Source: Candidatus Woesearchaeota archaeon (GTDB lineage: Archaea; Nanobdellota; Nanobdellia; Woesearchaeales; JABGUJ01). Taken from it: a stretch of DNA of 64,000 nt. Position 1 is the stretch's first letter, and every line of letters begins with the position of its first letter. Both the position numbers and the translations under genes were made by a program. Below the pieces are notes generated by a model. The model saw only the letters and a program-made list of their open reading frames with translations. It ran no database searches and was not told the origin of the DNA. Below are positions 1-30,066 of this stretch, piece after piece. The stretch is from NCBI GenBank assembly GCA_018646625.1, contig JABGUJ010000003.1:206355-270354 (forward strand), read 5' to 3'.

Positions 1-339
1 TGTAACACGAACTTTGACCTTTCTACCAGAAGGAACCTTCAACTTATTAGTTGTATACTCTTTATCATCTTCATTCTCAAACTTACATTCAACTTTAACA
101 GGAGGCTCAGCAACAATGTGAACTTTTTTCTCACCTTTAATTTGCGCCCTATTAACGCGAGTCATTGCAGTAATAGTAACTTCTTCCTCTCTAGCATCAG
201 GAGGAACAGGGAAATCCACATTAAAATGATCGGCACCTCTAGGATTTTCATCTTCAGGATATACAGCTTTCGCTACATGTTTCTTATTCTTATATCTCAG
301 TTCAGCTGACCTATATTGTTTATGTGGGTCGTCCGCCAT
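1..339 (-). CDS. Ig-like surface protein, 3' part beyond the window
   Basis: The start codon is at 339 and the frame stays open for 113 codons to the left edge, so the C-terminus is missing. The product begins MADDPHKQYRSAELRYKN and continues with short beta-strand-like stretches and repeated valine/charged patterns (DAREEEVTITAMTRV, KKVHIVAEPPVKVEC, GRKVKVRV), which look like Ig-like or adhesin beta-sandwich repeats. No signal peptide is visible. The start lies 2 nt after the stop of the 653-aa membrane protein, whose own C-terminus has similar beta-sandwich texture, so the two are probably co-translated and work at the cell surface. The family is not recognised; the Ig-like reading is an inference from composition. 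Confidence 0.6.
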   Translation of the reverse strand, partial: MADDPHKQYRSAELRYKNKKHVAKAVYPEDENPRGADHFNVDFPVPPDAREEEVTITAMTRVNRAQIKGEKKVHIVAEPPVKVECKFENEDDKEYTTNKLKVPSGRKVKVRVT

Positions 340-341
340 CT

Positions 342-2303
342 TTAATCAATCCTATAATCCTCTTCGCCTTCTACAAACACAGTTGCTCTCAAATTAGTAC
401 CCATAGGTGCCTCATCAGGAGCATCAATATTCAAATGAGGCGCAGGCATAAACTCAACCTCAACTTGATCTCTTATCGTACCTTCAACTTCAGCAGTAAT
501 TGTTGCTTTGCCTTTTTTATCAGATTTTATTCTAACCAACACATTACCATTAGCATCAGGAACACTTCTAAACGTAACAGGTTTATCGCCACCTTCGAAA
601 CCAGGAATCGCAGAACCACCTACAAAAGGAACTCTCATAAGATTATTCTTTGCTTTTTGTTTCCACCAATCACCACTAAATGTTTTCTTTTTAGACGAAT
701 CAGAAGCAAGTCCCGCACTAGCATCAAAGTTCTCAGCAGGCATCAATTCACCGAAGTCGGTAGTTATCTCTACAAACTTACCTAGGAATTTAACCTTCTT
801 CTGAGTCATATCGTTAGTATATCTTCCTCGTCTCCAAGAAGACTGTTCTTCAACCCTCAACTTAGCAGTTATCAAAGAACTACTATAATTATCAGCAGGA
901 ACTGATTTAGGTGCAGCAGACAAATTAATCAACTTCGTTTTCAATACACTACCAAGCATAACTGTAATTACCTCAGTACCTTCGCCTTCAGTAACAATAA
1001 TTTCACTAGACGCATTCGGCATTCCTCCAGCTCTATATGCAGCCCAGATAAATGGGATACTACCCATAACCTTCGCACTACTTAGGTAACCAACCGCACC
1101 TTCAACAGCACTAACCACATTACGAGACAACATGGCTTTTGCAGATGTCCACGCACCGCCAACAGGAGCCAACCTTGCAGTATTAAGAACATTAGCACCA
1201 ATACCAAACATACCGGCAACAGGACCTGCAAGTAAAGCAGAGTACATACCAATCTTTCCTAAATCTCTAAACAAAGTTCTAGGAGCATCAACCTTTAAAC
1301 CATAAGGGATACCAGTTGCAACATTCATTGAGCCAGTTGTACCATCAGGCCCAGTTCTATCATTAGACTTAGGTAACTTTAATTTTTTAAATCCAGCTTT
1401 TTTAGGATAAGGAGTTAATTTAACATTAGCACCTTTAACTGGTTCACCATTCAAATCCATAACTTGTATTTGTGTTGGACGATAATTAGCGTTCGCCGAA
1501 GTAAGATCAGGTTCTTTATCATCAGGGTCAACATCCTTACCAGGTTTCTTACCATCTCCACCAGCACCAGGACTACTATCGCCACCAGAGTTACCACCTG
1601 AACTACCACCGGAGTTACCACCTGAACTACCACCAGAGTTACCACCTGAATCGCCACCAGAGTTACCACCTTTACCAAACATACCTATTATCCAAAAAAT
1701 ACCTGCGATGATGGCCATCAACCAACCCCACCACATGATGTTAGGTTTAGTCATCAACATTCCAGCAGTAATCATAGCAAGTCCTGCAGCAGCAAGACCC
1801 ATCTTCCAACTTTTTTCACCAGACTCATTCTCAAAGCCTTTGTAAATTATCAAGAAAGTAACAATCGCAATTAACAAACCACCTAAAACACCGAAAGGTG
1901 CTAAAAGTCTAAAAAGAGTATCTTGAGTATTTTGAATAGTACAAGTAGCAGCACCAATTCCACCTTTACAACCCGTTCCAACAAAAATTGCCATCAAACT
2001 AAGGAACGCCATCGACACAGCAACTAACTTACCACTTTTGTTCAAGCCACCACTGCCACCTTTGAAAATATTTACTTTACCTAATGCAGCACCAAGGATA
2101 CCATACAATAATACAAAGAAGAAAATAACAGTAAAACCAAATACAATTTCACCAGTACTAAGCATACTATACATCCCAGCACCAATAGAAGCCAAGAACT
2201 TAGTCAAATCAGGAAACTTAAATCCCCAATCAATTGCAAATACAGAAGGAACTACAAGTAACAAAGCGAGCATAAAACTCCAAAGTGATTTTTTAATATT
2301 CAT
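342..2303 (-). CDS. Polytopic membrane protein with Gly/Ser linker and large beta-rich tail
   Basis: 653 aa. A Sec-type signal peptide (about residues 1-23, ending SVFA) is followed by about four to five membrane segments up to residue 208. This core is paralogous to the proteins at 4647-5582 and 8783-9673; the shared signature is GGLNKxGKxVAVSMAxLSL followed by an APFG/SPFG turn and a KGFENESGEKSWK loop. A low-complexity Gly/Ser/Asn linker (about 211-240) leads to a carboxypeptidase-regulatory-like segment (about 275-340), a short hydrophobic stretch, and Ig-like repeats to the end. The start overlaps the stop of the small RHH gene (ATGA), so the two are translationally coupled. A membrane channel or anchor carrying an exported domain is the simplest reading; the function is unknown. 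Confidence 0.85.
   Translation of the reverse strand: MNIKKSLWSFMLALLLVVPSVFAIDWGFKFPDLTKFLASIGAGMYSMLSTGEIVFGFTVIFFFVLLYGILGAALGKVNIFKGGSGGLNKSGKLVAVSMAFLSLMAIFVGTGCKGGIGAATCTIQNTQDTLFRLLAPFGVLGGLLIAIVTFLIIYKGFENESGEKSWKMGLAAAGLAMITAGMLMTKPNIMWWGWLMAIIAGIFWIIGMFGKGGNSGGDSGGNSGGSSGGNSGGSSGGNSGGDSSPGAGGDGKKPGKDVDPDDKEPDLTSANANYRPTQIQVMDLNGEPVKGANVKLTPYPKKAGFKKLKLPKSNDRTGPDGTTGSMNVATGIPYGLKVDAPRTLFRDLGKIGMYSALLAGPVAGMFGIGANVLNTARLAPVGGAWTSAKAMLSRNVVSAVEGAVGYLSSAKVMGSIPFIWAAYRAGGMPNASSEIIVTEGEGTEVITVMLGSVLKTKLINLSAAPKSVPADNYSSSLITAKLRVEEQSSWRRGRYTNDMTQKKVKFLGKFVEITTDFGELMPAENFDASAGLASDSSKKKTFSGDWWKQKAKNNLMRVPFVGGSAIPGFEGGDKPVTFRSVPDANGNVLVRIKSDKKGKATITAEVEGTIRDQVEVEFMPAPHLNIDAPDEAPMGTNLRATVFVEGEEDYRID
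1582..1670 (-). repeat. 24-bp in-frame tandem repeat coding the Gly/Ser linker
   Basis: Three full copies and a partial copy of a 24-bp unit encode GGNSGGSS or GGNSGGDS octapeptides. Copies differ by one to three bases. It sits inside the 653-aa membrane protein exactly where the membrane core ends, and could change length by slippage without breaking the frame. Confidence 0.85.
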
Positions 2304-2476
2304 CGTTTTCTTTTCTCAACTACTTCTTTATTCTTTTCTACCAGATCACGCATATACAATTCTAGATTTTTAGATCTTACAAGGCCTAACTCGTCACAAA
2401 TAAGAGAGAAATCCTCATACACATCTCGATCTATCAAGAAATTATACCGCTGTTTGTTTGTCTTTCTGGCCGCCAT
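2300..2476 (-). CDS. Ribbon-helix-helix transcription regulator (58 aa)
   Basis: The 58-aa product starts MAARKTNKQRYNFLIDRDVY. A basic N-terminus, one short strand (RYNFLI), and two helices separated by a turn (VYEDFSLICDELGL, then RSKNLELYMRDLVEKN) fit the CopG/Arc-type ribbon-helix-helix fold, which binds DNA as a dimer through the strand. Its stop codon overlaps the ATG of the 653-aa membrane protein (ATGA). A TATA box (CTTTAAATAC on the minus strand, 2519-2528) lies about 45 nt upstream. A second small RHH gene heads the neighbouring operon at 9657-9818, so this one is probably a local autoregulator. The fold call is by eye. Confidence 0.7.
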   Translation of the reverse strand: MAARKTNKQRYNFLIDRDVYEDFSLICDELGLVRSKNLELYMRDLVEKNKEVVEKRKR

Positions 2477-2486
2477 AATTCATACA

Positions 2487-2528
2487 CACTAGTGATTACA
2501 GAAAATCATAATTATGGAGTATTTAAAG
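2487..2528 (-). promoter_or_regulatory. Promoter and palindrome before the RHH/653-aa unit
   Basis: The minus strand carries a TATA box CTTTAAATAC at 2528-2519. The 8-bp palindrome CACTAGTG at 2487-2494 lies where transcription should start, a plausible place for the ribbon-helix-helix protein to bind its own promoter. Assignment as an operator is inference. Confidence 0.5.
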
Positions 2529-2529
2529 C

Positions 2530-2759
2530 TTTCCATTAAATCATTAATAAAACATAAATACATACTTTATAGACAAAAAAGAGCACACAACAATACACAA
2601 AAACACCAACAAGAATACACACAGATACACAAAAAACACAGAAAAACAAGTAAAAAATACATCAAAAGCACATAAAAGATACATAAAACAAACACAAAAC
2701 AATCAAAAGAAAACAATTAACAACCAATAATACACACAAATACATCAATCATACACACA
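2530..2759 (-). other. G-poor low-complexity 3' region (likely termination zone)
   Basis: About 230 nt without a gene, almost lacking G on the plus strand and full of ACACA/AATACA runs. Read in the direction of the minus-strand operon ending at 2760 it is a long T/G-rich tract, which suits archaeal termination on T-rich RNA. No hairpin stands out. Confidence 0.45.
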
Positions 2760-4643
2760 CTAAGAATTCTTCAAAAAACCATCAACCATCTCAACAACTT
2801 CATCAACGTTCTCCACTTTTCTCTTTAAATATTCTTTAAAGTCATCATCAGAATATGAATCTTTAGCAAGCTTACCGATAATATATACAATCAATTCTCT
2901 AACATCATCCTTAACACTTTCAAAGCCACCAGATTTATATGACCGCTTCAACTCAGAATCCCTTTCAAGAACTTCAACACCGAGTGCTCGCAGATCATTA
3001 GGAATATTGGAACTCAAATAATCAACAAACAACATCAAAGAACCAAACAATTCTTTTACAACTTTGATTTCATCCATTTTAGCCTTAAGTTCATCCATCA
3101 ATTCTCTACCTTCTTTACTAGTGGCTAACTTAATGGATTCTCGAGCAATCTTTGCTAATGCAACCTCATCATCAGTCATTTGACCTTTAGTGATTCGATC
3201 CAAAACATCAGATCCAACTTTAATTTTTCGCCGTTCAAGTTCTTTCTTCAAAGCATGAACAAACTGCATTATCTTACCTAACGCAACTTTATAGTCTTTA
3301 GACTTTGCCGCCTCTTCAGCTTCCCTGTATTCTTTAACACCACAAGAAGCAATAGTAGCAGTCGGAACTTCGTTATCAATAGCCAATGCCTTCAAATATT
3401 CTAAAACAGATTTCGCATAATCATAAGCAGACTCTAAATCTTTCTCCTTAAGATCAGCATCAAGTCTTCGCACATCAGCATCTTCTCGATCCAAAGCCTC
3501 ATGAGTAAGTTCAGTCACTAATTCCACATCACGATCAGTCATTTCATGTCGAGTCATCAATCTAACAGGCACAGGATTAGAATACTCATCAGCATGTCTC
3601 ACCTTAATACTTACTTGTTCACCCAAATCTTGAATTCCTAATGCAACTATTCTGGAAGCATACACACCAAACATAAGTTCATCACGTGTCAAATTAATCA
3701 ACTCAACATAGTCTTTTTTCCCCATACAATAAACACGCAACTTAGATAAATCAGGCATCGTCAAATTAAAAGAATCAGGACCTAAATAATTAAGAACAAT
3801 ATGATGAGCCCTAGTTTTCTGAGCTAATTCGGCTTTAATTAGCTGCGGATGCGAAGTTATAGATTCAGATGATTCGGATCTATTAGAAGATCCAGGTTGC
3901 ACAGGCATCTCAGGTTCAACGTCATCATGAGGAGCGGGAGTTGGAGTTCTACGACGTGGTGCAGCGCGTAGCTTCTCAAAAGCAGCATCCAACTTATCTA
4001 AACCACGAGAATAAAACTCAACCACTCGTTGATAATTCTGATCTCCAGCAGCCTGATTACCTTGCCTAAGCAAGACATTCATTTCATTGATCAAAGGTTC
4101 AACCTCAGACAAATCATAAGCTAATTTTTTCTCAGTATGCATTTGTTTAAACAAAGCTAACTTTCTTTCAAGTTCCGCCTTTAATTGTCTAAACTTGGCC
4201 ATTAATTCTACTGAAACTTCACTTGAAACATGTCGAGTATGAATCTCAAACTCAGTTTTTAACCTATCAAAAAAATATTGCTCATCGTTAAACGCAGGAA
4301 CTAATCTTTCAAGACCTGCCGCAATTTTTTGTACAAACTGTTTAGAATAAATTTGATCTCTAATCTCCGCAGGTATCGCAGAAGGATTCTTTTCAAGCCG
4401 TTCATAAGTATCAAATAATTTATCGCACAAATCTTTTGTTTCAACTAAAAGATTATGACCTTGATTAAATAAAGCCAAATATTGTAAAAACACTTTTTTC
4501 AATCTAGCATTACCCAAAGCTTCAATTAAAGCATTAACATGGGGCATCGCATTCTTAACAGCTTCATGATACTTCCAGTAATCTCTTATCGCTACACGTA
4601 TCCTGATGATCTTCTGACCATTTACATGTCTTGCATCTGTCAT
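2760..4643 (-). CDS. Helical coiled-coil protein of unknown function (627 aa)
   Basis: The protein is soluble in appearance, with no signal peptide or membrane segment. Residues 1-215 are long amphipathic helices. A proline/serine linker (about 217-255, with TPTPAPHDD and SSNRSESSES) separates them from a mixed alpha/beta middle domain (about 265-350) and a second helical half rich in Glu, Lys and Asp. It is the last gene of the operon that starts at 9818, 3 nt after the stop of a membrane paralogue. It resembles no family I can name. A cytoplasmic scaffold for the membrane proteins would fit the context, but nothing in the sequence proves it. Confidence 0.75.
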   Translation of the reverse strand: MTDARHVNGQKIIRIRVAIRDYWKYHEAVKNAMPHVNALIEALGNARLKKVFLQYLALFNQGHNLLVETKDLCDKLFDTYERLEKNPSAIPAEIRDQIYSKQFVQKIAAGLERLVPAFNDEQYFFDRLKTEFEIHTRHVSSEVSVELMAKFRQLKAELERKLALFKQMHTEKKLAYDLSEVEPLINEMNVLLRQGNQAAGDQNYQRVVEFYSRGLDKLDAAFEKLRAAPRRRTPTPAPHDDVEPEMPVQPGSSNRSESSESITSHPQLIKAELAQKTRAHHIVLNYLGPDSFNLTMPDLSKLRVYCMGKKDYVELINLTRDELMFGVYASRIVALGIQDLGEQVSIKVRHADEYSNPVPVRLMTRHEMTDRDVELVTELTHEALDREDADVRRLDADLKEKDLESAYDYAKSVLEYLKALAIDNEVPTATIASCGVKEYREAEEAAKSKDYKVALGKIMQFVHALKKELERRKIKVGSDVLDRITKGQMTDDEVALAKIARESIKLATSKEGRELMDELKAKMDEIKVVKELFGSLMLFVDYLSSNIPNDLRALGVEVLERDSELKRSYKSGGFESVKDDVRELIVYIIGKLAKDSYSDDDFKEYLKRKVENVDEVVEMVDGFLKNS

Positions 4644-4646
4644 TTT

Positions 4647-5582
4647 TTAGTGCCACTTAGCTGATTGATTAGGATCTAAACGATTATCCGCAGAACCAAG
4701 AGCATTCATCATCTCTTGCCTTTTCACATTATTTTGTTCAACGTCACCCAGTAACTCTTTTATTTTTTTTCTAACTTTTTCTTTATCCGCAGGAGTTGCA
4801 GGAGAATTCGAAGAATTACTAGAAGAATCATCTCCTGAAGAAGAAGGTTGAGTACCAGAAGAATTACTAGAAGGTTGTTGCGAAGATGAAGAATTTCCTG
4901 AATTTGAAGATGAAGGAGATGAAGAATTTCCTGAATTCGAAGAAGGATTTATTTTTCCAAACTGAGTATCCTTACCATAACTATCCCCCGATTCTTTACT
5001 CTTCCACATAGATAATAAGAAAAACACTAAACCAACTGCCATAATCAAGAAACCATACGCCATAACATTAGGATAAGAAAACCAAAATGCAAAAGCCATC
5101 ATGGTTAAACCTGCCGCAACTAAAGCAGCTTTCCAGGCTTTTTCTTTATTATCATCTTTGAAGCCCATGTAAATAATCATGAACATCACAGCAGCAATCA
5201 TAAAACCGCCAAAAACACCAAAAGGCGTAAGAACTTGGTTAAGAATCATAACCATGCTTTTGTACTTGGCCGCCCAGTAAAATATTGCAAAGTTCGACAA
5301 CAACGCCATACATACAGCAACAATTTTACCTTGTTTGTTAACTTCCTTTTTACCCTTCTTAAAAACATCAACTTTACGCATTGCTGCAATAACAATCGCA
5401 GTCTGCAAAGCAAACATTAACAAAAAAGTTATTCCATAAATAATATACAAATCTCTCAATACTCTCTGAAGATAAAAGAAAAATCTACTCAACTCATTTA
5501 AAATTCTCAAAGCATGAACATTAGGAGCTAAAAATAATAAAAACGACAAGCCCAATATTCCAATTCTAAATAATTTCTTCAT
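4647..5582 (-). CDS. Polytopic membrane protein, paralogue 2 (311 aa)
   Basis: A signal peptide (about 1-24, ending NVHA) precedes about five membrane segments ending near residue 193. The core matches its two paralogues (VNKQGKIVAVCMALLSNFAI, then LTPFGVFGGFMIAAVMF, then YPNVMAYGFLIMAVGL) but is the most divergent: FKDDNKEKAWK replaces the FENESGEKSWK loop. The C-terminal tail (about 205-265) is almost pure Ser/Asn/Gly/Pro and ends with a short charged helix. Its ATG overlaps the TAA of the protease gene by one base, so it is tightly coupled to the protease. The function is unknown; three different tails on one membrane core suggest display or docking of different partners. Confidence 0.8.
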   Translation of the reverse strand: MKKLFRIGILGLSFLLFLAPNVHALRILNELSRFFFYLQRVLRDLYIIYGITFLLMFALQTAIVIAAMRKVDVFKKGKKEVNKQGKIVAVCMALLSNFAIFYWAAKYKSMVMILNQVLTPFGVFGGFMIAAVMFMIIYMGFKDDNKEKAWKAALVAAGLTMMAFAFWFSYPNVMAYGFLIMAVGLVFFLLSMWKSKESGDSYGKDTQFGKINPSSNSGNSSSPSSSNSGNSSSSQQPSSNSSGTQPSSSGDDSSSNSSNSPATPADKEKVRKKIKELLGDVEQNNVKRQEMMNALGSADNRLDPNQSAKWH

Positions 5583-8146
5583 TATGTTATTATCCTCGAT
5601 TTCGTTGCTTCTTCATGTATCGCCTTTAGCTTTTCTTTTAATTGAGACATGAAAGTATGAATCTGACCAACCATTTCTTTATGTGCTGCGATTTTCTCAA
5701 GAACCTTACCACCACGCAAAACTTGTTGATGTAAATCAACAAAGTCTGCTAGAACTTCTTGTAACAAAATCTTTCGCACTTCTTCAGCTCTTGGTTTATG
5801 TTCCTGATCACCCAGCTTATCTTCCACCCTTTCAAGCTTATCCATAACTTCAGTTAAAGACAAGTCAACTCTAGTTAGTACCGAAACCAAACTTTGAACA
5901 GTAAGATCTCTCTGGATCACAAGACCTTTAATACTTCCAAATTTTTCCTCACACTCTCTATTCCATTCAATTTTATGTTCTTCAGGTATCTTTAATTCTT
6001 CAAAGAGTTTTTTATAATGATCTAATGCGTGAGTTACATCTTCATGATCTCTAAAAAGGTGCTTCTGTCTTGAACCAATATTCTCAACATCTAACTTTTT
6101 CAACTCTTTTTTCAGAGCCTTAATCAGCGCGTCAACCTTTTTGTAATCCTCATCAGTCGCCTTACGTTCAACAAACACTTGATGCGTTGCATGAGCCGCC
6201 TCTAAATGCTTAGCAATTCCTTCAACAACCGAATGTAAATTTTCAAGCAAAGCTTTTTCATCACTTAAATCGTGTTTAATGTCATCTTCTAATTTCAAAA
6301 TAGATTTATTCTCCAACCAAGCCTTAATGTCAGATTCAGCAGAGTTAAGTGCTTCAAGATTTCTATACTTAATTACAAGCATTCCGTCTTTATACTCAAA
6401 TACAATTTGATTTCCTGAATCTTGAACTAAAACATGTTTTCTCTTAACCTTCAACTCATCTAAAGAAATTGGCTCATGCATCTCTTCACCTTTTCGACGC
6501 ACTACCGCGGTCTTAAGATGAGCACCGATAGGTATTTGAGCAAACTGTTCGAATCTTGACAAAGAAACAAAACCTTCTAAATCAATTGCCAATTTGTTAG
6601 GATCCTTATTTTCAAGTTTATCTTTTATAGATTTTACTTGACCATCATATCCATCACTCTCAGATCTCACAGGTGTAGGTCGATCAGGAACTCTAGGCGC
6701 AGGAGGATGTGGAACTCTATGTTCTCGACTGTCCCATTTCCAATAATCGGTATTACCATTTTCACAGGCACCCAACGCAACAACTTTATTCCTATCTCTT
6801 GCAAAGTTAATACTTAAATCATCATCACTAAAATCAACATTAGCATTCGTTCCTTTAATCGGACCATCTAATTTACGACCAATGCCATTAGTATACAAAT
6901 TCATAGGTGAACGATGCTCAGCTTGTGATTCTCTAAACTCGCCCTCACTATCGAATAACCACCAAACATAATTGTATTCTCCCGTAGCAACTGGTGCCGG
7001 CGCTCCAGGCGTTGCAACAGTCACGTTTTTTTCAACAGTAGAACTACCACCAGGACCTGTAACTCTTAAACGAATTCTATAAGTACCCTCATCATAGTAC
7101 ACTTTAGGATTAGGATCTCTTCTATTAAACGTAGTTCTATCTCCAAAATCCCAATCATATCTTGAAATTCTACCTGAAGAAGTATTTCTAAATCTAACCA
7201 GTAGAGGAGCTTCACCAGTAACTGGAGCAACATCAAAATTAGCAGCGGGAGGAATTCTTCTAGGAGGTGTAGGTGGACGCGGTCCAGGAACAGGCCTTGC
7301 ATCTTTAGCTTTCATCAAAACAACTTCAGATGCACAAGCCTTTAGCGCAGCAGGAGTGTAATAACAATAACCCCTATCTTTCCAACCAGGACCATAACTA
7401 TTTCTTACTTTGAATACTTCTTTTCTCTGTCCCCCATGAGAATAATCAGGAATATAACCAACAATCATCATCGCATGACCACCATAACTTGTAATTGGTT
7501 GATTATCAAAAACAGGACTGCTGTTATCAGAAAAAAAGTTATTATGATATCTATGCACACCAAGTTTCAAAACATGACCATCATGTAATGCTTGAATCCA
7601 TTCATCGTGATTCGTACGAGATAATTCTCTATAATTCTCAAAAATCTTATTATTTCCTGCATCCCTAAATGCGCGATCATCAGGTCGTTCTGAAAACTTT
7701 CCCCCCAGACACCTATTTCTTCTGGGCCCGACATCATAACCAGGAACTGGTGTAGACACGGGACTAAATGACCATCTACTTTCTTTAGCACAACCTAAGT
7801 TAATACTTTGACTAACATAGTCAGGATAATGTGATCCACGATTCTTATCTTTTTTATTATGATTACAAGGATCTGGCACGCCGGGATGCACAGCCCTATC
7901 AGACTCTCTACAAAAAGGCTCAGCACCAGGAGGTCTAAAATTCCACCAAAGAAACAACGGAGACATTCTGTGATCTGTTTTTACTCTACCGTCTTTTCTA
8001 AAGAGATAAAACTCAAACATACCAGCCATAGCAAAAGCCGCACAAGCTCCAAAAGGACTTTGATTTCTAACGGCTAACATGTTAACCGAATGATCTATTG
8101 TAGGAATTCTCAACCCTCTTCTCCTTAGCTCGCTTACATTAACCAT
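5582..8146 (-). CDS. Papain-like cysteine protease with PKD domain and coiled coils
   Basis: 854 aa. The N-terminal domain has the C1 papain pattern: Gln29 and Cys35 in RNQSPFGACAAFA, a GCAKES segment near 118, an LHDGHVLKLGV strand near 187, His224 in SYGGHAMMIVGY and Asn249 in VRNSYGPGW. The usual Trp after the catalytic Cys is Ala. A PKD domain (about 300-380, WDFGD core) follows, then a short beta region, and from about 490 to the end long charged coiled-coil helices. There is no propeptide and no evident signal peptide, odd for a protease with a PKD domain. It lies between two membrane paralogues, so it may process them or an exported substrate. The fold is well supported; the target is unknown. 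Confidence 0.85.
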   Translation of the reverse strand: MVNVSELRRRGLRIPTIDHSVNMLAVRNQSPFGACAAFAMAGMFEFYLFRKDGRVKTDHRMSPLFLWWNFRPPGAEPFCRESDRAVHPGVPDPCNHNKKDKNRGSHYPDYVSQSINLGCAKESRWSFSPVSTPVPGYDVGPRRNRCLGGKFSERPDDRAFRDAGNNKIFENYRELSRTNHDEWIQALHDGHVLKLGVHRYHNNFFSDNSSPVFDNQPITSYGGHAMMIVGYIPDYSHGGQRKEVFKVRNSYGPGWKDRGYCYYTPAALKACASEVVLMKAKDARPVPGPRPPTPPRRIPPAANFDVAPVTGEAPLLVRFRNTSSGRISRYDWDFGDRTTFNRRDPNPKVYYDEGTYRIRLRVTGPGGSSTVEKNVTVATPGAPAPVATGEYNYVWWLFDSEGEFRESQAEHRSPMNLYTNGIGRKLDGPIKGTNANVDFSDDDLSINFARDRNKVVALGACENGNTDYWKWDSREHRVPHPPAPRVPDRPTPVRSESDGYDGQVKSIKDKLENKDPNKLAIDLEGFVSLSRFEQFAQIPIGAHLKTAVVRRKGEEMHEPISLDELKVKRKHVLVQDSGNQIVFEYKDGMLVIKYRNLEALNSAESDIKAWLENKSILKLEDDIKHDLSDEKALLENLHSVVEGIAKHLEAAHATHQVFVERKATDEDYKKVDALIKALKKELKKLDVENIGSRQKHLFRDHEDVTHALDHYKKLFEELKIPEEHKIEWNRECEEKFGSIKGLVIQRDLTVQSLVSVLTRVDLSLTEVMDKLERVEDKLGDQEHKPRAEEVRKILLQEVLADFVDLHQQVLRGGKVLEKIAAHKEMVGQIHTFMSQLKEKLKAIHEEATKSRIIT

Positions 8147-8148
8147 TT

Positions 8149-8781
8149 TTATTCATCATCCTTTTTGCTTTCATCTCCCGCTTCCAACATTGCTTTAATG
8201 TCGTCCTCGCTAGGAGTATCCGTACTATCATCAACTTTAACATCAGGTATTTTAGGCACCCACTTATCTTCAACAGGAATTATTATCGATTCAAGAGTTC
8301 CATGATTTTTGCTTAAGTCATTTCCATGAATCGCTTCACCTTCTTGACCAAATCCATTATTACCTAACTTGCCCCTATTATCATATTCACTTTTTTCAAC
8401 ATGCGCGACTGCAATGTAACACCACCATCCTGTGGGCACTTTGTGAATTTCAAAATAACCTAAGTCGTCTACATTGACAGGTTCAAACGCATGCTTGTTA
8501 GTGGTAACTGACTCATAAACTTCTTTGTGCTCTTTAGCAAGTCTGTCTAAATCTTTTGGTTCATAAGGATCATACAACTCCACTCCTTTTTCACCTTGAA
8601 TATGAATTTTTAAACGAACTAACGCAGGATGCAACGGTCTAGTTTTTGCATCATTATGATAACCCATAACATGACCTTGTAAACTAACATATTCCAAAGT
8701 TTGTGGATGAGGTTTAGGTTCATCTGGTTTTATCTTAGGTTGAGGCTCTGGTTGCGGTTGTGGTTTTGGTTCATCTCCCAT
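8149..8781 (-). CDS. Proline-rich protein with carboxypeptidase-regulatory-like domain
   Basis: 210 aa. Residues 1-28 are a Pro/Gln/Lys/Glu tract (KPQPQPEPQPK). Residues 30-170 look like one carboxypeptidase-regulatory or Cna-B-like beta-sandwich: YVSLQGHVMGYHND at the start, ALVRLKIHIQG, a DDLGYFEIHKVPTGWW turn typical of these domains, and a final IIIPV strand. The last 40 residues are acidic. No signal peptide is present. A strong Shine-Dalgarno sequence (GGAGGG) precedes the start, and the gene sits 1 nt after membrane paralogue 3 and 2 nt before the protease start. It is probably a structural partner of those proteins. Confidence 0.7.
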   Translation of the reverse strand: MGDEPKPQPQPEPQPKIKPDEPKPHPQTLEYVSLQGHVMGYHNDAKTRPLHPALVRLKIHIQGEKGVELYDPYEPKDLDRLAKEHKEVYESVTTNKHAFEPVNVDDLGYFEIHKVPTGWWCYIAVAHVEKSEYDNRGKLGNNGFGQEGEAIHGNDLSKNHGTLESIIIPVEDKWVPKIPDVKVDDSTDTPSEDDIKAMLEAGDESKKDDE

Positions 8782-8782
8782 T

Positions 8783-9673
8783 TTAGTCCCTCCTTACTAC
8801 TCCATCCATTTTTCCTCGAGGTTTCTCAATACCCCTAACGTGAGGATACCATTCATGAATTGGCTCAGGTATCCTCGGATCCGGTTCTGGCGTTGGTCCA
8901 TCAGGCGTAGGCTCATCTGGCGCAGGTTCATCCCCTCCTGAAGGTGTTGGTGTATCAGAAGGTGTAGTCGAAGAATTATTATTCGCAGGCGTAGAAGAAC
9001 TTGAAGAAGGTGATGATGATGAATTATTCCCAAAACTAAACTGAGTCTCATCACCATAACTATCAGAAGATCCGCTCTTATCTCCAAACATTCCAATCAT
9101 CCAAAATATGCCACCTATCAAGAATATTAACCAACCCCACCACATAATATTAGGATAAGACATCAACATTCCCGCAGTTACCATTCCAAAACCTGCAGCA
9201 GCCAGACCAAACTTCCAACTTTTCTCTCCAGATTCATTTTCAAATCCTTTGTAAACTACAAGGAACATTACTATTGCAATTAACAATCCACCAAAGGCAC
9301 CGAATGGTGAAAGAATTCTTATCACAACTGTTCTAGGATCTGATCCAACAAAGATTGCCAACAATGATAACAAAGCCATAGATACAGCAACAATCTTTCC
9401 TCTTTTGTTCAAGCCACCCTTGCCGCCTTTGAAAATATTAACTCTACCAAGTGCCGCAGCCATGATACCATACAACAAACAAAAGAATAATAATACAGTA
9501 AAACCATAAACTACTACTCCGTTTGTAAAGAATCTAAAAAGATAATTAAAGAAATTTCCAAATGCGTTTATTGCACCATTAAAATAACTAGAAAGTGGTC
9601 TAGCATAAACTAAATTACTCATAAGAACAAGAAGCAATCCGCTTAATCCAATTATACTATTTCTTTTGTTCAT
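8783..9673 (-). CDS. Polytopic membrane protein, paralogue 3 (296 aa)
   Basis: A signal peptide (about 1-24, ending LVYA) is followed by about five membrane segments (roughly 50-75, 92-112, 120-143, 150-170, 173-195). The core is close to the 653-aa paralogue: GGLNKRGKIVAVSMALLSLL, SPFGAFGGLLIAIVMF, KGFENESGEKSWKFG and YPNIMWWGWL. The tail is a Ser/Asn then Pro/Glu/Asp spacer (about 205-270) ending in a short basic segment, unlike either other paralogue. The start overlaps the stop region of the RHH gene by 17 nt. This is the first structural gene of the operon. The function is unknown. Confidence 0.82.
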   Translation of the reverse strand: MNKRNSIIGLSGLLLVLMSNLVYARPLSSYFNGAINAFGNFFNYLFRFFTNGVVVYGFTVLLFFCLLYGIMAAALGRVNIFKGGKGGLNKRGKIVAVSMALLSLLAIFVGSDPRTVVIRILSPFGAFGGLLIAIVMFLVVYKGFENESGEKSWKFGLAAAGFGMVTAGMLMSYPNIMWWGWLIFLIGGIFWMIGMFGDKSGSSDSYGDETQFSFGNNSSSSPSSSSSTPANNNSSTTPSDTPTPSGGDEPAPDEPTPDGPTPEPDPRIPEPIHEWYPHVRGIEKPRGKMDGVVRRD

Positions 9674-9818
9674 TTTTCATACCCTTCAAAACTTTAGCAA
9701 TACAATATTCAACAGCATGGCTTCTATTTGCAAATCTGTATTCAGAAATTTCACTATCTAGAAGATCTAACAGCTCTTTCTCAACGCTGATACTTATCTT
9801 TTCTTTGCCTTTAGCCAT
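9657..9818 (-). CDS. Ribbon-helix-helix transcription regulator (53 aa)
   Basis: The 53-aa product starts MAKGKEKISISVEKELLDLL. One strand (KISISV), helix A (EKELLDLLDSEISEY), the turn RFANRS and helix B (HAVEYCIAKVLKGM) match the CopG-type ribbon-helix-helix layout closely. It is the first gene of the operon running to 2760 and overlaps the membrane paralogue start by 17 nt. A TATA box and two related sequence motifs lie upstream at 9822-9910. Autoregulation of the surface-protein operon is the likely role; the fold is clear by eye, the target is inferred. Confidence 0.8.
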   Translation of the reverse strand: MAKGKEKISISVEKELLDLLDSEISEYRFANRSHAVEYCIAKVLKGMKNEQKK

Positions 9819-9998: not shown

Positions 9999-10394
9999 AT
10001 GTTCGGATTTGAAGCTGAAAGGAGCATTCCAAGTCTCATTGTTGGTATAATTCTTCTCGCCCTTGGTGGCATACCCTTATTAGCAAACCTAGGAGTTATT
10101 CCTAATTTTCTACCGGGTGCACTAACGGGAATTATTGGAAGCATTGCACTATATCTTATCGCAGCTGGCGGTTTGTATATGATCATAGATGCATTCTTAG
10201 AAGGACTAGATGAACCAAACGGCGTTGTTACATTGATAGTAGGGTTAATTATTGTTGCAGTAGGTATCATAAACATACTGAACAAATTTGGCATACTAGG
10301 ATTTAGCGTACCGTTCATGAACGAAATGGTTTATAATATCTTGTTCGTCGTTGAAGGATTATTCTTAGGAATAGGCGCATTTTTTATGCAATAA
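9999..10394 (+). CDS. Small four-TM membrane protein of unknown function
   Basis: 131 aa, starting MFGFEAERSIPSLIVG. An upstream in-frame TTG at 9993 is possible, but the GAGGTG at 9986-9991 is correctly spaced for the ATG at 9999. Four hydrophobic segments (about 10-30, 37-62, 73-95, 103-130) are separated by very short loops (GVIPNFLPG, LEGLDEPNG). No catalytic or metal-binding residues stand out. It is transcribed alone from its own TATA box, divergently from the RHH operon, and ends in a T-rich tract. I do not recognise the family. Confidence 0.75.
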   Translation: MFGFEAERSIPSLIVGIILLALGGIPLLANLGVIPNFLPGALTGIIGSIALYLIAAGGLYMIIDAFLEGLDEPNGVVTLIVGLIIVAVGIINILNKFGILGFSVPFMNEMVYNILFVVEGLFLGIGAFFMQ

Positions 10395-10443: not shown

Positions 10444-11160
10444 ATGGAAGTAATTCTCGAAAAAAAACCAAAGAATCCAGTAATAGTAGAAGGCTTTCCT
10501 GGTTTCGGTTTAATAGGTACAATCGGCACAGAATTCTTAATGAATAATTTAGAAGTGGAGCAGATCGGACAGATATACTTCGACGACATGCCTGCAGTTG
10601 TGGCCGTGCACGATCACAAGATCATACACCCATTCGGAATATACTACAACAAAAAACACAATCTAATCATAATTCACGCAATCACAAGTTCTGCAGGTTT
10701 GGAATGGAAGATCACCGAGGCAATACTAAAACTAGCAGACACATTACAAGCAAAAGAAATAATTTGCTTAGAAGGAGTCGGAAGTAACGACGCAAATAAA
10801 GAAGAACCCGAAACATATTATTACACTAATGAACCAAAAATGAAGAAAAAACTAGAGGAACTCAAAGTAAAACCTCTGAAAGAAGGAATAATTATGGGCA
10901 TCACAGGCACAATTTTGCTAAAAGGCAGCGATAAACATAAAGTATCATGCTTATTTGCAGAAACTCATTCTAAATTGCCAGACAGTCGAGCCGCAGCCAA
11001 GATAATAGGGGAAGTTAACAAATATTTGGCATTAGGTATAGACACAAAACCATTAATGGCACAAGCAGACAAGTTTGAAAAGAAAATCCAGTCATTAATG
11101 AGTAAAAGTATGGAAGCAACGCAGATGCAGAAAACAAAACGACCAAATTACTTTGGTTAA
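10444..11160 (+). CDS. PAC2-family proteasome assembly chaperone-like protein
   Basis: 238 aa. An in-frame GTG lies at 10435, but it is part of the Shine-Dalgarno AGAGGTG, which is well spaced for ATG 10444. The PAC2/DUF75 pattern is clear: PVIVEGFPGFGLIGTIGTEF at the start, FDDMPAVVAVHDHKI, LIIIHA, a CLEGVGS strand-turn, MGITGTILL and LFAETHSKLPDSRAAAKII. Archaeal members of this family are linked to proteasome assembly, but many are uncharacterised. The gene ends tail-to-tail with the next one, the two stop codons overlapping. Confidence 0.85.
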   Translation: MEVILEKKPKNPVIVEGFPGFGLIGTIGTEFLMNNLEVEQIGQIYFDDMPAVVAVHDHKIIHPFGIYYNKKHNLIIIHAITSSAGLEWKITEAILKLADTLQAKEIICLEGVGSNDANKEEPETYYYTNEPKMKKKLEELKVKPLKEGIIMGITGTILLKGSDKHKVSCLFAETHSKLPDSRAAAKIIGEVNKYLALGIDTKPLMAQADKFEKKIQSLMSKSMEATQMQKTKRPNYFG

Positions 11161-18626: not shown

Positions 18627-19766
18627 TTAGATTTCAAACTCAATTTGCTCAAACTCACCATTTCTTACTGAGTTTATAACAGGCACCCTAACCGCAATTC
18701 CATTCTGATCAAACTTCATCGACCCAGAGATTGCAGGATAGTTATCAACAGAGTACAAACCCCTCACAATAGCTTCAGAACTAACACCATTCTTCCGCAT
18801 CACATCTGCAACCAAATGAACATTGTCATAACCAAGCACAGCATAAAGCACGTTAGGAGGTTCTTCGCCGAATCGTTCAACATACTTGTCTACAAATTCA
18901 TTAAGCTCAAAGTTATCATCACGATAAGCAAGCTCATAACTAAAATATGTCCCCTCCATAGCATCACCAGCATTATCCAAAGTCTCCTTCACCGCAAATG
19001 TTGATGCACCTAGAAACTGAACATCATAACCCATCTCTCTTGCCTGCTTAACAATCTCCCCATCAAGCGCCAAAGGAACAGCATAGATTGCATCAGGCTC
19101 ATAAGACATCATCTTCAAGATCTCCGTTCTAAAGTCAGACGATTCATAATTATGAGTTACAACAACTAGAACCTCACCACCCAAAGCTTCAAAATCTCTT
19201 GAAAAAGTCTCTGCTAAAGTCTGGCCCCATTCATCAATGTCATAAAACACTGCAACCTTCCTAGCGCTTAAATTTTTGTAAGCAAAATTAGCCATCAAAG
19301 ATGCCGAACCTTCAACCGAATATCCAGTTGCAAAAATAAACTCACCAGCATCAGCAATATCATCAGTAACATCCAAAGTCCCAATCAATGGAACTCCATT
19401 CTTCTGAGCAACAGGAATAGCAGGCATTATTGAAGTAGCGCACACAGGCCCGATCACAACTGGTACTCTATCCACCTCAACTAATTTGGAAACAGCAGTT
19501 ACTCCTGCTTTTGGCAAACATTGACCATCTTCAAAGATAACATTCAATTGTACCCCGCTTATTCCACCTTCAGCATTAATTTCATCCAAAGCCATCAAAG
19601 CACCCTTCTGCATTTCAATTCCCGCAGATGCAAAAAAATCTGTAAATGGCGCAACAAAACCAATTTCTACAACATCCATTCTATCAACGACCTTACCAGT
19701 GATAACATCATTACCACAACCAACTAACAATACAGCTATCGCTAACACAATAATCAATTTATTCAT
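18627..19766 (-). CDS. Substrate-binding lipoprotein, branched-chain amino acid type (pair 1)
   Basis: 379 aa from ATG 19766, chosen for its GGAGGT 8 nt upstream; an in-frame start 30 nt earlier has no such signal. A lipobox (LLVGC, Cys about 17) is followed by ITGKVV, a motif shared by other lipoproteins here. The mature part is a two-lobe type I binding fold (LivJ / Peripla_BP_6): VEIGFVAPFTDFFASAGIEMQKGALMALDEINAEGG, VPVVIGPVCATSIMPAIPVAQKNGVPLIG, and a second lobe with VAVFYDIDEWGQTLAETF. No permease or ATPase gene adjoins it. It is divergent from a TrmB gene with an inverted repeat between. Confidence 0.88.
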   Translation of the reverse strand: MNKLIIVLAIAVLLVGCGNDVITGKVVDRMDVVEIGFVAPFTDFFASAGIEMQKGALMALDEINAEGGISGVQLNVIFEDGQCLPKAGVTAVSKLVEVDRVPVVIGPVCATSIMPAIPVAQKNGVPLIGTLDVTDDIADAGEFIFATGYSVEGSASLMANFAYKNLSARKVAVFYDIDEWGQTLAETFSRDFEALGGEVLVVVTHNYESSDFRTEILKMMSYEPDAIYAVPLALDGEIVKQAREMGYDVQFLGASTFAVKETLDNAGDAMEGTYFSYELAYRDDNFELNEFVDKYVERFGEEPPNVLYAVLGYDNVHLVADVMRKNGVSSEAIVRGLYSVDNYPAISGSMKFDQNGIAVRVPVINSVRNGEFEQIEFEI

Positions 19767-19820
19767 TTTAACATACCTCCACCTACACCCAAACACCTAC
19801 TAGACAGAAACCAAAAAGAG

Positions 19821-19873
19821 TATATAAATAGTTGGTGTCTTTTATTAGACACCAATAGAAAGAAATATAAAAC
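19821..19873. promoter_or_regulatory. Divergent promoters and operator of TrmB pair 1
   Basis: The minus TATA (TATTTATATA, 19830-19821) serves the lipoprotein and the plus TATA (AAATATAAAAC, 19863-19873) the TrmB gene. Between them is a perfect 9-bp inverted repeat TTGGTGTCT (19832-19840) / AGACACCAA (19847-19855), 6-nt spacer, touching the minus TATA. It is a strong candidate for the TrmB binding site. Confidence 0.7.
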
Positions 19874-19892
19874 AAAAGAGCAATAAAAAACT

Positions 19893-20642
19893 ATGAACAA
19901 AGAATTTCTTAAAGAAGCGGGCCTAAACGACAGAGAGATTGAGATCTACCTAGCACTTCTAAGACTAGGTTTAGTACTAGTCTCAACCTTAAGCAAAGAA
20001 ACAGGATTACACAGATCCAACATTTACGACACTTTAGAAAAACTTCAAGACAAAGGATTAGTCAGCCACATTGTAAAAAATAACATAAAATACTACAAAG
20101 CAACTTCACCGGAAAGACTACTTGATTACATAGACGAAAGAAAAGAAAACATAAAAAAAATTCTTCCAGAACTAATCAACCTAACAAAACTTCCGAGAGA
20201 AGAAACCAAAGTTGAGGTATTCAAAGGAATAGAAGGAATAAAAACAGTCTTAAAACAAATAATAAAAGACAGAAAAACATACCACATAACAGGAGAAAGC
20301 GAAAAATTCTTTGACCTATTAGGACCATACGCAACTCAATGGCTAAAAAAAGCAGAGGAACTGAAAATAAAAGGAAAGCTTGTCTTCATAGAAGGTATGA
20401 AATTTGGTCTAACTAAATACGAAACATGCAAAATCTTGCCAGAAGAGTGTTTTTCATCAATAGAAACTTGGATTTGGGATACAAAAACAGGTTACTTTGT
20501 TATGAGTCCGCCTTACTTCGTAATACTCGTCGACAACAAAGACATTGCAGACTCAAACATCTCACAATTTAATTTTCTTTGGAAACTAGGTAGAAAACCA
20601 ACACCAAAAGAAGAAAAAGAAGCAAAAGCACGAATGCTCTAA
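19893..20642 (+). CDS. TrmB-family transcription regulator (pair 1)
   Basis: 249 aa. The N-terminal TrmB winged helix is typical: LKEAGLNDREIEIYLALLRLG, TLSKETGLHRSNIYDTLEKLQDKGLVSH, NIKYYKATSPERLLDYI. A linking helix and a C-terminal effector-like domain with alternating strands follow (KTYHITGESEKFF, KGKLVFIEG, YFVMSPPYFVILVDNKDIAD). TrmB proteins usually bind sugars or other ligands and control transporter genes. It probably regulates the divergent lipoprotein. ATG 19893 lies about 22 nt after a TATA element, so the message is nearly leaderless. It ends tail-to-tail with the next minus-strand gene. Confidence 0.9.
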   Translation: MNKEFLKEAGLNDREIEIYLALLRLGLVLVSTLSKETGLHRSNIYDTLEKLQDKGLVSHIVKNNIKYYKATSPERLLDYIDERKENIKKILPELINLTKLPREETKVEVFKGIEGIKTVLKQIIKDRKTYHITGESEKFFDLLGPYATQWLKKAEELKIKGKLVFIEGMKFGLTKYETCKILPEECFSSIETWIWDTKTGYFVMSPPYFVILVDNKDIADSNISQFNFLWKLGRKPTPKEEKEAKARML

Positions 20643-21124
20643 TTGTCTTTTTGCTTAAACAAACCAGTTTTCCAACCAATAAATGTATGCACAACTCTCT
20701 CTACAGCAATGGAAGCAACCCAAGCCAACTGATTTGCAACAGCAGCATTTAAATCATGATTCATAAGAACATAGTGCAACGGACCTTGCATAGAATAATA
20801 TAAAACATTAGCAGGTAACTCAGAAGTATACAAATGCATCAATTCTTTACGCAATTTCTTCCTACCGACAGAGCCTGAATAACTTTGATGATTCCCCTGA
20901 TAATACAAAGCACCCTGTAAACCTAAATAAGCAACATAGTCTACAGCTGCCGCCCCTATTGCGATTGTCTCAGCATCACAACCCAAATTGTCCATACAAT
21001 AAGAAGCAGACGACGCAACCAACAACGCAGGCAGACCAGATGCAACGGCATTAGCATTAACACTAACAACTTTATTGTTCTTATACAAAGAAACAACTTT
21101 GTTAACAACATCAGAAATCGACAT
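20639..21124 (-). CDS. Small multi-pass membrane protein, unknown (161 aa)
   Basis: The start is taken as ATG 21124, which has a GGTG Shine-Dalgarno 7 nt upstream; the longer frame begins at a TTG within that signal. About three to four weakly hydrophobic segments are rich in Ala, Val and Tyr (ALLVASSASYCMDNLG, IGAAAVDYVAYLGLQGALYY, LAWVASIAVERVVHTFIGW). It resembles in texture the AlaE-like protein at 15760-16335 but I cannot align them with confidence. It lies 30 nt after the next lipoprotein gene in the same direction. Confidence 0.55.
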   Translation of the reverse strand: MSISDVVNKVVSLYKNNKVVSVNANAVASGLPALLVASSASYCMDNLGCDAETIAIGAAAVDYVAYLGLQGALYYQGNHQSYSGSVGRKKLRKELMHLYTSELPANVLYYSMQGPLHYVLMNHDLNAAVANQLAWVASIAVERVVHTFIGWKTGLFKQKDN

Positions 21125-21154
21125 ATTTCTCACCAAAAAAGAAAAAGAAAAAAA

Positions 21155-22291
21155 TTAGGAAAGTTTAACAAACTCTCCTTCAACATTCTGGTACATAACT
21201 TCGTTGATGCTTCTAACGATTCCATCATCATCCATGCTCAAAGTTCCAGTCAAACCTTTCAATGCAACACTATGCATTCCAGCTTTTAACTCATCACCTT
21301 TAGCAACACCAGCTTCATCAATAGATTCTGCTAAAAACATCATCGAATCATAACCAGTTGCAGTAAACAATACAGCTTCAGGATCTTCACCATACTTCAC
21401 TCTAAACTCAGTCAAGAACTGTTGTGATTCTAAATCATCACCAGTCTCCCAAAAAGTAAAGTACAACCCGTCATCTGCACCTTGTGCATTCTCAACAAAG
21501 TTTAAACTTGTTGCAGTATCAATTGTAAGGAAAGTTCCTTCAATGCCCATTTCCTTTGCTTGCTTCAACAACAAACCAACCTCATCATAACCCATCACTA
21601 AAAACGTGTCCACTCCAGTTCTTTGGGCTTTGATAAGCATTGATCTAAAGTCAGACTGCTCAGGTTCATAAACATCTTCAATTACAACCTCACCGCCTAC
21701 TGATTCAAACTTTTCTTTGAAAGTTTCTTTTGTTAGAACCATAAATCCAGAGTTTTGATACAATACAGCCACTTCCTTTTTCTCCAATTCATCAAAAGTA
21801 AAGTCAGCTAAACTGTAACCTACTCCTTCATCATAAATTCCAATTCCAAAAGCGAACTCCCCTGCATCTGCAATCTCTTCACTTGAATCTAATCCGTTAA
21901 TAACCGCAACTTTGTCAGCATCAGCCATGGGAGCTAAAGCAAACAATGAGTCATAACCACTCACAATAAAAGCATCAACACCGTCAACATCTTTCATTTT
22001 CTTATAAGCAGTCACAGCTTTTGTTGCTTCGTGTCTATCATCGTAATGTACAAGCTCAACTTTCTTGCCATCAATTCCACCTTGAGCATTAAGTTTTTCA
22101 ACCGCCAACTCAACTCCTCTAAAGTTTGCAATTCCTAATGATGCTTCAGAACTGGTCAATGCACCAATCCAACCGATCTTAACAACTTCTTGTGTAGGTT
22201 CAACTACAACTTCTCCAGTTATACCTGAGTTGCCACAACCTACAAGTCCTAAGATCAAGATTATAGCTACCGCTAAGTTCAATAATTTCAT
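21155..22291 (-). CDS. Substrate-binding lipoprotein, branched-chain amino acid type (pair 2)
   Basis: 378 aa. The lipobox LVGC is followed by ITGEVV. The mature domain has the LivJ-type fold: VKIGWIGALTSSEASLGIANFRGVELAVEKLNAQGGIDGKKVELVHYDD, then KMKDVDGVDAFIVSGYDSLFALAPMADADKV, then the second lobe VAVLYQNSGFMVLTKETF. A GAGGTGG Shine-Dalgarno precedes the start. Pair 1's lipoprotein is clearly a paralogue. There is no transporter gene next to it; either a permease is encoded elsewhere or the protein works as a sensor or scavenger. Confidence 0.88.
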   Translation of the reverse strand: MKLLNLAVAIILILGLVGCGNSGITGEVVVEPTQEVVKIGWIGALTSSEASLGIANFRGVELAVEKLNAQGGIDGKKVELVHYDDRHEATKAVTAYKKMKDVDGVDAFIVSGYDSLFALAPMADADKVAVINGLDSSEEIADAGEFAFGIGIYDEGVGYSLADFTFDELEKKEVAVLYQNSGFMVLTKETFKEKFESVGGEVVIEDVYEPEQSDFRSMLIKAQRTGVDTFLVMGYDEVGLLLKQAKEMGIEGTFLTIDTATSLNFVENAQGADDGLYFTFWETGDDLESQQFLTEFRVKYGEDPEAVLFTATGYDSMMFLAESIDEAGVAKGDELKAGMHSVALKGLTGTLSMDDDGIVRSINEVMYQNVEGEFVKLS

Positions 22292-29550: not shown

Positions 29551-30066
29551 GTGGCAAAAAAAAGAGTGGTAAAGCGTAAAGCTGCTCCAAAAAGGAGGGC
29601 ACCTAAGAAAAAGGCAGCTCCTAAGAGGAAGCCAGTGAAACGTAAACCTGCTAAGAAAAAGGCAGTAAAGAAGAAGCCAGCCAAGAGAAAACCTGCTAAG
29701 AAAAAAGCAGTAAAACGAAAGGCAGCTAAAAAAAGGACTGTAAAAAGAAAAGCAGTGAAAAGAAAGCCAGTTAAAAGAAAAGCAGTGAAGAAGAAAACTG
29801 TTAAGAGAAAAGCAGTAAAGAGAAAACCGGCTAAGAAAAGAACTGTTAAGAAAAAAGCAGCTAAGAAAAAACCTGCAAAGAGAAAAGCAGTAAAAAGAAA
29901 AGCTGTAAAGAAAAAAACAGTCAAAAGAAAAGCAGTTAAGAAAAAGGCAGTGAAGAGAAAAGCAGTTAAGAAAAAAACTGTAAAGAGAAAACCTGCTAAA
30001 AAAAGAAAGCCTGCTAAAAGGAAGGCACCTGCTAAAAGAAAGCCTGCTAGGCGAAAAAGAAAATAA
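29551..30066 (+). CDS. Lysine-rich repeat protein, histone H1-tail-like
   Basis: 171 aa from GTG 29551, with GAGGTG 7 nt upstream. Nearly the whole protein is Lys, Arg, Ala, Pro and Val in five-residue units such as KRKAV, KKKPA and KRKPA, with occasional Thr replacing Ala. No folded domain or globular part is present. The composition is like histone H1 tails and bacterial histone-like Hc1/AlgP tails, so non-specific DNA compaction is the likely role. The mirror frame on the minus strand is an artefact of the repeats. It faces the basic protein at 30217-30735. Confidence 0.75.
   Translation: MAKKRVVKRKAAPKRRAPKKKAAPKRKPVKRKPAKKKAVKKKPAKRKPAKKKAVKRKAAKKRTVKRKAVKRKPVKRKAVKKKTVKRKAVKRKPAKKRTVKKKAAKKKPAKRKAVKRKAVKKKTVKRKAVKKKAVKRKAVKKKTVKRKPAKKRKPAKRKAPAKRKPARRKRK

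Follow-up and report, generated by a model that had tools for sequence, protein, structure and literature searches.

A conserved Woesearchaeales locus encoding paralogous five-helix membrane proteins, a papain-like protease and large helical partners

Gene content and extent of the locus

We analysed a 64,000-nucleotide stretch of the Candidatus Woesearchaeota archaeon assembly GCA_018646625.1 (hereafter the window; contig JABGUJ010000003.1, here C4:206355-270354; genome of 1.57 Mb, 96% complete). At its left end lies a cluster of minus-strand genes encoding membrane proteins that share a signal peptide and a common core region, a papain-like (C1) protease, and several soluble proteins, some of them very large. 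The cluster is cut by the window edge, and reading positions 187000-206999 of the same contig (L005) for its left continuation added approximately 11 kb, such that the whole locus occupies ~C4:195,570-216,172, or ~20 kb. The genes of the cluster that fall within the window are listed here by window position, grouped into two units (see below).

9657..9818, minus strand: RHH1, a small regulator of 53 amino acids (aa), first gene of unit 1 (open reading frame, ORF; weak match to the NikR N-terminus)
8783..9673, minus strand: coreA, 296 aa, signal peptide and core of five transmembrane (TM) helices, Ser/Pro-rich tail (paralogue search; AlphaFold2 model)
8149..8781, minus strand: CR210, a soluble beta-type protein of 210 aa, signal-less and encoded between coreA and the C1 gene (orthologues in genomes G065 and G031)
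5582..8146, minus strand: C1 papain-like protease (residues ~1-290) with PKD domain (~307-377) and helical C-terminal part (Pfam; triad motifs)
4647..5582, minus strand: coreB, 311 aa, signal peptide and five-TM core, Ser-rich linker, helical tail (paralogue search)
2760..4643, minus strand: helical-627, soluble, without signal peptide (ORF reading)
2300..2476, minus strand: RHH2-type regulator of 58 aa, first gene of unit 2 (relatives upstream of cores; profile search)
342..2303, minus strand: coreC, 653 aa, signal peptide and five-TM core, Gly/Ser linker, tail with a Big_1-like stretch (paralogue search; Pfam)
1..339, minus strand: first 113 aa of a 2753-aa protein, the remainder lying outside the window at C4:198432-206693

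Unit 1 runs from RHH1 through coreA, CR210, the C1 protease-PKD-helical protein (854 aa) and coreB to helical-627. Unit 2, on the same strand, begins with the RHH2-type regulator and continues through coreC, the 2753-aa giant, a 313-aa helical protein and a further core (coreD, 370 aa) to a 219-aa helical protein. Spacing is tight throughout: RHH1 and coreA overlap by 17 nucleotides, coreA and CR210 are separated by 1 and CR210 and the protease by 2, the protease and coreB overlap by 1, and coreB and helical-627 lie 3 apart; in unit 2, RHH2 and coreC overlap by 4 nucleotides and coreC and the giant lie 2 apart. The sole real gap among the window genes of the cluster is the 283-nucleotide interval between helical-627 and RHH2, and the locus is therefore probably divided into two transcription units, each headed by a small regulator. 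An initial annotation, made from the letters of the window, had the whole cluster running in one direction with overlaps or gaps of 1-3 nucleotides; co-orientation and tight spacing hold, with this one gap as the exception. It had also listed a separate Ig-like protein, which disappears on extension of the sequence, as positions 1-339 encode the beginning of the 2753-aa protein.

The membrane core family

CoreA aligns with the other two window cores at 54% and 43% identity over ~220-240 aa (E = 4e-64 and 1.6e-49, respectively), a paralogy that, judged by sequence comparison, is far above chance. A search of the source genome recovered coreD, outside the window, as a fourth core (E = 9e-10 to coreA), and a region of ~200 aa is common to all four. 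The initial annotation was thus right about the paralogy of its three cores and one short in their number.

Searching with the coreA sequence alone gave matches in 8 of 60 genomes of the same order, and at E ≤ 1e-4 a 15-row core profile identified members in 36 of 288 Woesearchaeales genomes, the strong ones among them spanning no fewer than 13 family labels. Across a phylum-wide sample, 17 of 371 genomes carried a core, all from the same order except for one weak match within the same class. For highly diverged cores found at the same genomic place, hhalign gave a link with the core profile (96.7%, E = 4e-10). Profile matches in unrelated genomes and a shared gene neighbourhood (see below) were both found, and we treat the core as a family on these grounds.

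This family has no credible match in Pfam, NCBIfam, PHROGs or PADLOC, and a pattern scan of genome contigs with the core returned nothing. The AlphaFold2 model, built from an alignment of 32 cores (mean predicted local distance difference test score, pLDDT, of 82), shows five long helices preceded by an amphipathic one; Foldseek returned nothing for it at E ≤ 0.001 against either the PDB or the viral models of BFVD. The earlier statement that no described system has such a gene set therefore stands: hidden Markov model (HMM) searches, structural modelling and synteny assign the core to no known family or fold, and the same arrangement recurs in other Woesearchaeales genomes.

At three other loci (L048, L053 and L057), five-TM proteins of 180-200 aa that lack a signal peptide are arrayed in tandem; they bear a weak resemblance to the core and could represent its ancestral family.

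Predicted topology of the core

Typical signal peptides are present in almost all cores (36 of 40 by a simple rule), and their cleavage-site Ala hardly varies. The N-terminal region is net positive in 29 of 32 cores, and the TM1-TM2 loop carries a net positive charge in 31 of the 32 and a negative one in none. Shorter core relatives (L049, L051, L052 and L054) combine a signal peptide with ~3 TM helices and a charged helical tail, keeping the odd parity. Taken together, the signal peptide, the positive first loop and the odd number of TM helices argue for cytoplasmic core tails, and the variable tails and partner proteins are probably located on the cytoplasmic face of the membrane. A 1660-aa core relative in G164 (L065:7729-12711) carries an SLT-like domain (E = 4e-4, just below the cut-off) between signal peptide and TM1, which is the outer side, as expected for an exported enzyme, and a CarboxypepD_reg domain after TM5. 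The coreC tail contains a sub-threshold Big_1 match (Pfam, E = 5e-8).

The protease module

The C1 domain of the window protease matches PF00112 with 30.7 bits against a cut-off of 20.7 (E = 4e-7), and its PKD domain also lies above the Pfam cut-off (E = 8e-10), bearing out the C1 protease with PKD named in the initial annotation. All catalytic motifs are intact (Gln, Cys35, His224, and Asn in RNSYG), none of the three active-site residues (Cys, His and Asn) varies among the eight aligned C1 homologues, and the best structure match by sequence is xylellain (PDB 3ois, E = 2e-6); by these sequence tests, the protein is a member of the papain family (C1). It has no signal peptide, and no pro-domain is visible.

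We used the C1 protein as query against 145 genomes and then read the loci in which matches lay. One (G031) presents a regulator, a core, a 163-aa protein and C1 beside four-TM and PAC2 genes; another (G065) has two successive cores, a 173-aa protein and C1 beside PAC2; and a third (G122) has a signal-peptide multi-TM protein, C1, a helical protein, the four-TM gene and PAC2. At the cut-off used, the core-type proteins of these three loci gave no significant profile match; they were assigned from their signal peptides and pattern of helices. The 173-aa protein of G065 (L222) is the orthologue of CR210 (E = 5e-22) and in turn matches the 163-aa protein of G031 (L223; E = 1e-7), and each of these counterparts, from two other families, lies between a core-like gene and C1. 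CR210 had initially been described as carboxypeptidase-regulatory-like, a label for which Pfam gives no support: it matches neither PF13620 nor PF13715, and CarboxypepD_reg domains are found in its counterparts in relatives. In three further families the module is joined into single chains. In G032 a core, a CarbReg-type region (recognised by eye), C1 and a helical part form one protein of 811 aa, and in G047 and G106 C1 is fused behind a signal-peptide multi-TM region. Gene order and these fusions are the strongest evidence that core and protease would work together.

Soluble partners and head regulators

The coupling of cores to soluble proteins extends beyond the protease. In all, 33 genes follow a core or positional core on the same strand within 100 nucleotides; 27 of these overlap it or start no more than 5 nucleotides away, and 29 encode no signal peptide. 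At three loci (L028, L072 and L075) the directly downstream gene encodes a GT4 glycosyltransferase embedded in a helical protein of 1010-1433 aa; two of these GT4 domains carry the E-x7-E motif, which the L028 copy lacks at the usual place. At L023 the core partner is an APH/fructosamine-kinase-like enzyme with catalytic motifs present. In such loci a GT4 or kinase-like enzyme would take the place of the protease, which would make the core a general enzyme-recruiting platform.

Among the partners in the source genome, helical-627 has no family match in Pfam or NCBIfam, and the 2753-aa giant, also without signal peptide, is beta-rich over its N-terminal two thirds and helical over its C-terminal third. 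The 313-aa helical protein belongs to a helical family of ~300 aa that connects the loci, and a profile of this family, built without it, recovers it at E = 1.9e-15. Further members detected in the order adjoin core-type signal-peptide/multi-TM proteins in five genomes (G035, G104, G175, G093 and G011); the exceptions are one member with no core-type neighbour (G022), one ambiguous case (G019) and two members at contig ends. We rejected kinship of the 313-aa protein with extended coiled coils or alpha-pore toxins, as we judged the Foldseek matches (best E = 8e-3, TM-score ~0.3) to reflect chance similarity between long helices.

Small genes overlapping or abutting the core head 11 cores, and by sequence pattern their products are RHH, ArsR-like or AbrB-like in different genomes. 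RHH1 has a weak, below-cut-off match to the NikR N-terminus (E = 5e-4), and RHH2 matches no RHH family HMM and is called by sequence pattern only. Relatives of RHH2 with 56-64% identity lie directly upstream of cores at L023, L069 and L070, and a pattern scan with the RHH2 alignment returned four loci, all in DPANN archaea and three of them in Woesearchaeota.

In other Woesearchaeota (L094, L096, L097, L102 and L103), the genes that immediately follow close homologues of RHH2 encode secreted subtilases and a lectin-like laminin-G protein. This placement would suit a family devoted to controlling large proteins of the envelope, and an envelope connection of the locus is therefore possible.

Chromosomal neighbourhood

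Two conserved neighbours lie on the opposite strand beyond RHH1.

9999..10394, plus strand: four-TM protein of 131 aa, conserved chromosomal neighbour (locus comparison)
10444..11160, plus strand: PAC2-type protein, conserved neighbour (motif and local profile)

Among 24 carrier genomes, a PAC2 gene is found near the core locus in 10, the four-TM gene in 7 and rpL35Ae in 7. Because these surroundings recur across families, the locus is an old chromosomal feature and neither viral nor an island. ArchaeaLon occurs near the core in three of the 24 (G000, G042 and G110; nominal p = 0.03), too weak a link for us to accept as a reliable association. Since a 3% background was assumed and the loci were in part selected, the neighbourhood p-values serve as a guide only.

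CoreD with a helical protein of ~210 aa is situated near ArchaeaLon in two families (L005:8570-10338 in G000 and L020:1-5889 in G042). Elsewhere in the window, positions 18627-22291 and 35759-36832 encode several lipoprotein-like ligand-binding proteins with a TrmB-like regulator beside each, by ORF reading a repeated sensor-regulator pairing, and positions 29551-30066 encode a 171-aa protein made up almost entirely of Lys/Arg/Ala/Pro repeats, resembling a histone-H1 tail.

Interpretation

The structure and conservation of the locus are well supported. As to its function, we tentatively favour a Woesearchaeales-specific, membrane-tethered cytoplasmic complex of protease and scaffold proteins under small autogenous regulators, a possible reading to which we attach less than even confidence. 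The core would be exported by way of its cleavable signal peptide and would adopt five membrane spans, which would leave the N-terminus outside the cell and the variable tail in the cytoplasm. CR210, the C1-PKD-helical protease, the 627-aa and 313-aa helical proteins and the 2753-aa giant would dock on the core tails and form a layer or scaffold beneath the membrane, as operon structure and fusions suggest; the protease module would be attached to the core through CR210 or, in relatives, would be part of the same chain behind the membrane region. The papain-like protease, with its intact Cys-His-Asn triad and no pro-domain, would then process or degrade proteins at this membrane site, its place being taken in other families by the GT4 glycosyltransferase or the APH/fructosamine-kinase-like enzyme, and the small DNA-binding head protein (RHH, ArsR-like or AbrB-like) would regulate its own operon. 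The processing machine that the initial annotation had offered as one option is plausible on this account and fits the invariant protease triad.

Several points weigh against such a complex. The core topology derives from hydropathy and charge rules and is not experimental, and the docking of partners is read from operon and fusion evidence, not from direct contact. Most genomes of the order give no core match with the order-wide profile, owing to fast evolution of the core. The 2753-aa giant has no detectable relative in the 145 genomes of the order, and therefore this part of the locus may be specific to the source lineage. Finally, PKD, Big_1 and CarboxypepD_reg domains are typically extracellular, which fits badly with cytoplasmic tails.

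These same domains would suit a surface or cell-contact machine, in which tails and partners act outside as adhesins, a display scaffold or a processing protease at host contact. The RHH2 relatives heading secreted subtilases and a lectin-like protein point in this direction, as do the SLT-like domain on the outer side of the G164 core and the proposal that large transglycosylase-domain proteins of Woesearchaeota/Pacearchaeota contact bacterial walls (PMC8204110). We nevertheless consider it unlikely, as 29 of the 33 downstream genes lack a signal peptide, a count of five TM helices once the signal peptide is cleaved off, together with a positive first loop, places the tails inside, the substrates of the GT4 and kinase partners are cytosolic, and the operon holds no pilus, ATPase or export genes. 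The surface, protein-display and cell-contact roles suggested in the initial annotation run against the same features (signal peptide, positive loop in 31 of 32 cores, odd TM number, signal-less partners) and against the nucleotide-sugar- or ATP-using enzyme domains that some downstream proteins carry. The signal-less enzymes might instead be cargo that the multi-paralogue core, as a pore or as a loading platform, hands on to an attached host cell. In favour of effector delivery, interchangeable enzyme domains, all linked to long helical stretches, accompany a conserved core, and papain proteases, glycosyltransferases and kinases are types frequently found among injected effectors. Host attachment is universal in cultivated DPANN archaea according to one report (PMC11291902), and tubes bridging the cytoplasms are known from one DPANN pair, though host-made (PMC11329633). 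Delivery is nonetheless quite unlikely in our view: no energising ATPase, needle, tail or pilus gene is present in the operon, no immunity-gene pattern was seen, the chromosomal neighbourhood is stable and not island-like, and the core fold is unlike any known pore or secretion subunit in Foldseek searches of the PDB and viral models. That the core is the platform of a DPANN contact machine which passes signal-less enzymes to the attached host, and is unrelated to known secretion systems, strikes us as very doubtful.

The C1 protease, the PAC2 neighbour in 10 of 24 carrier genomes and ArchaeaLon near the core in three could alternatively indicate membrane protein quality control, the locus acting with ArchaeaLon and the PAC2 protein in membrane proteolysis; but the Lon linkage is weak (see above), many core loci have no protease, and PAC2 is perhaps a positional neighbour only, and we judge this quite as unlikely as delivery. 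Fast divergence, tandem paralogues, small regulators and giant proteins could also mark a fast-evolving foreign cluster, namely a provirus, mobile or defence element. This is highly improbable given that PHROG matches are limited to a generic peptidase and two weak unknowns, that PADLOC matches nothing but a helical stretch weakly resembling LmuB (E = 0.0014), that the locus keeps a constant position beside PAC2, the four-TM protein and L35Ae in many families, and that the C1 triad is under constraint. We accordingly rejected a provirus, having found no viral hallmark or PHROG structural genes, and an anti-phage defence system, for which PADLOC returned nothing beyond the LmuB stretch.

Woesearchaeales are a large and diverse order of probably host-dependent archaea whose cell biology is almost wholly unexplored. 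Here, ~20 kb of a 1.57-Mb genome is devoted to an anchor of no known fold and to large, apparently sub-membrane proteins, representing either a new kind of archaeal membrane-bound enzyme scaffold or part of the dealings of these cells with their hosts. The recurring protease with its intact active site provides a direct biochemical handle.

Comparison with known systems

The locus is real, conserved and undescribed; a literature search, whose coverage excluded subscription journals and preprints, returned no published description of the gene set. Omnitrophota encode secreted giants with known repeats, whereas the woesearchaeal 2753-aa giant has no signal peptide. The tandem small five-TM proteins (e.g. 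L048 and L053) resemble the core weakly in profile comparisons (E = 1e-4 to 1e-10) and have a similar helix pattern, but differ in having neither signal peptide nor large tails. For type IV secretion, Tad and type IV pilus systems, no motor ATPase, pilin or platform gene was recognised among the ORFs of the operon and its flanks, and a VirB2/VirB6-like pore was rejected as having no sequence or fold support. The type-IV-pilus-like coiled-coil loci of cluster-2 DPANN archaea, as described in PMC11291902, are likewise DPANN coiled-coil loci and are thought to be host-interacting, but the locus studied here differs from them in lacking CpaF, TadC and pilin and in that its soluble proteins are signal-less.

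The large transglycosylase-domain proteins of Woesearchaeota/Pacearchaeota constitute fam00969 (Castelle et al. 2021, PMC8204110). Their shared feature with the core family is the SLT-like domain outside the membrane in the 1660-aa relative of G164, which is possibly one of these described proteins; the window cores have no such domain. With the multidomain prokaryotic C1A papain peptidases, represented by xylellain (PDB 3ois), the window protease has in common the C1 fold, as judged from Pfam and sequence, and the Gln/Cys/His/Asn motifs. Unlike them, it has neither signal peptide nor visible pro-domain, is followed by a PKD domain and a helical region, and is encoded with a multi-TM anchor or, in relatives, fused behind one.

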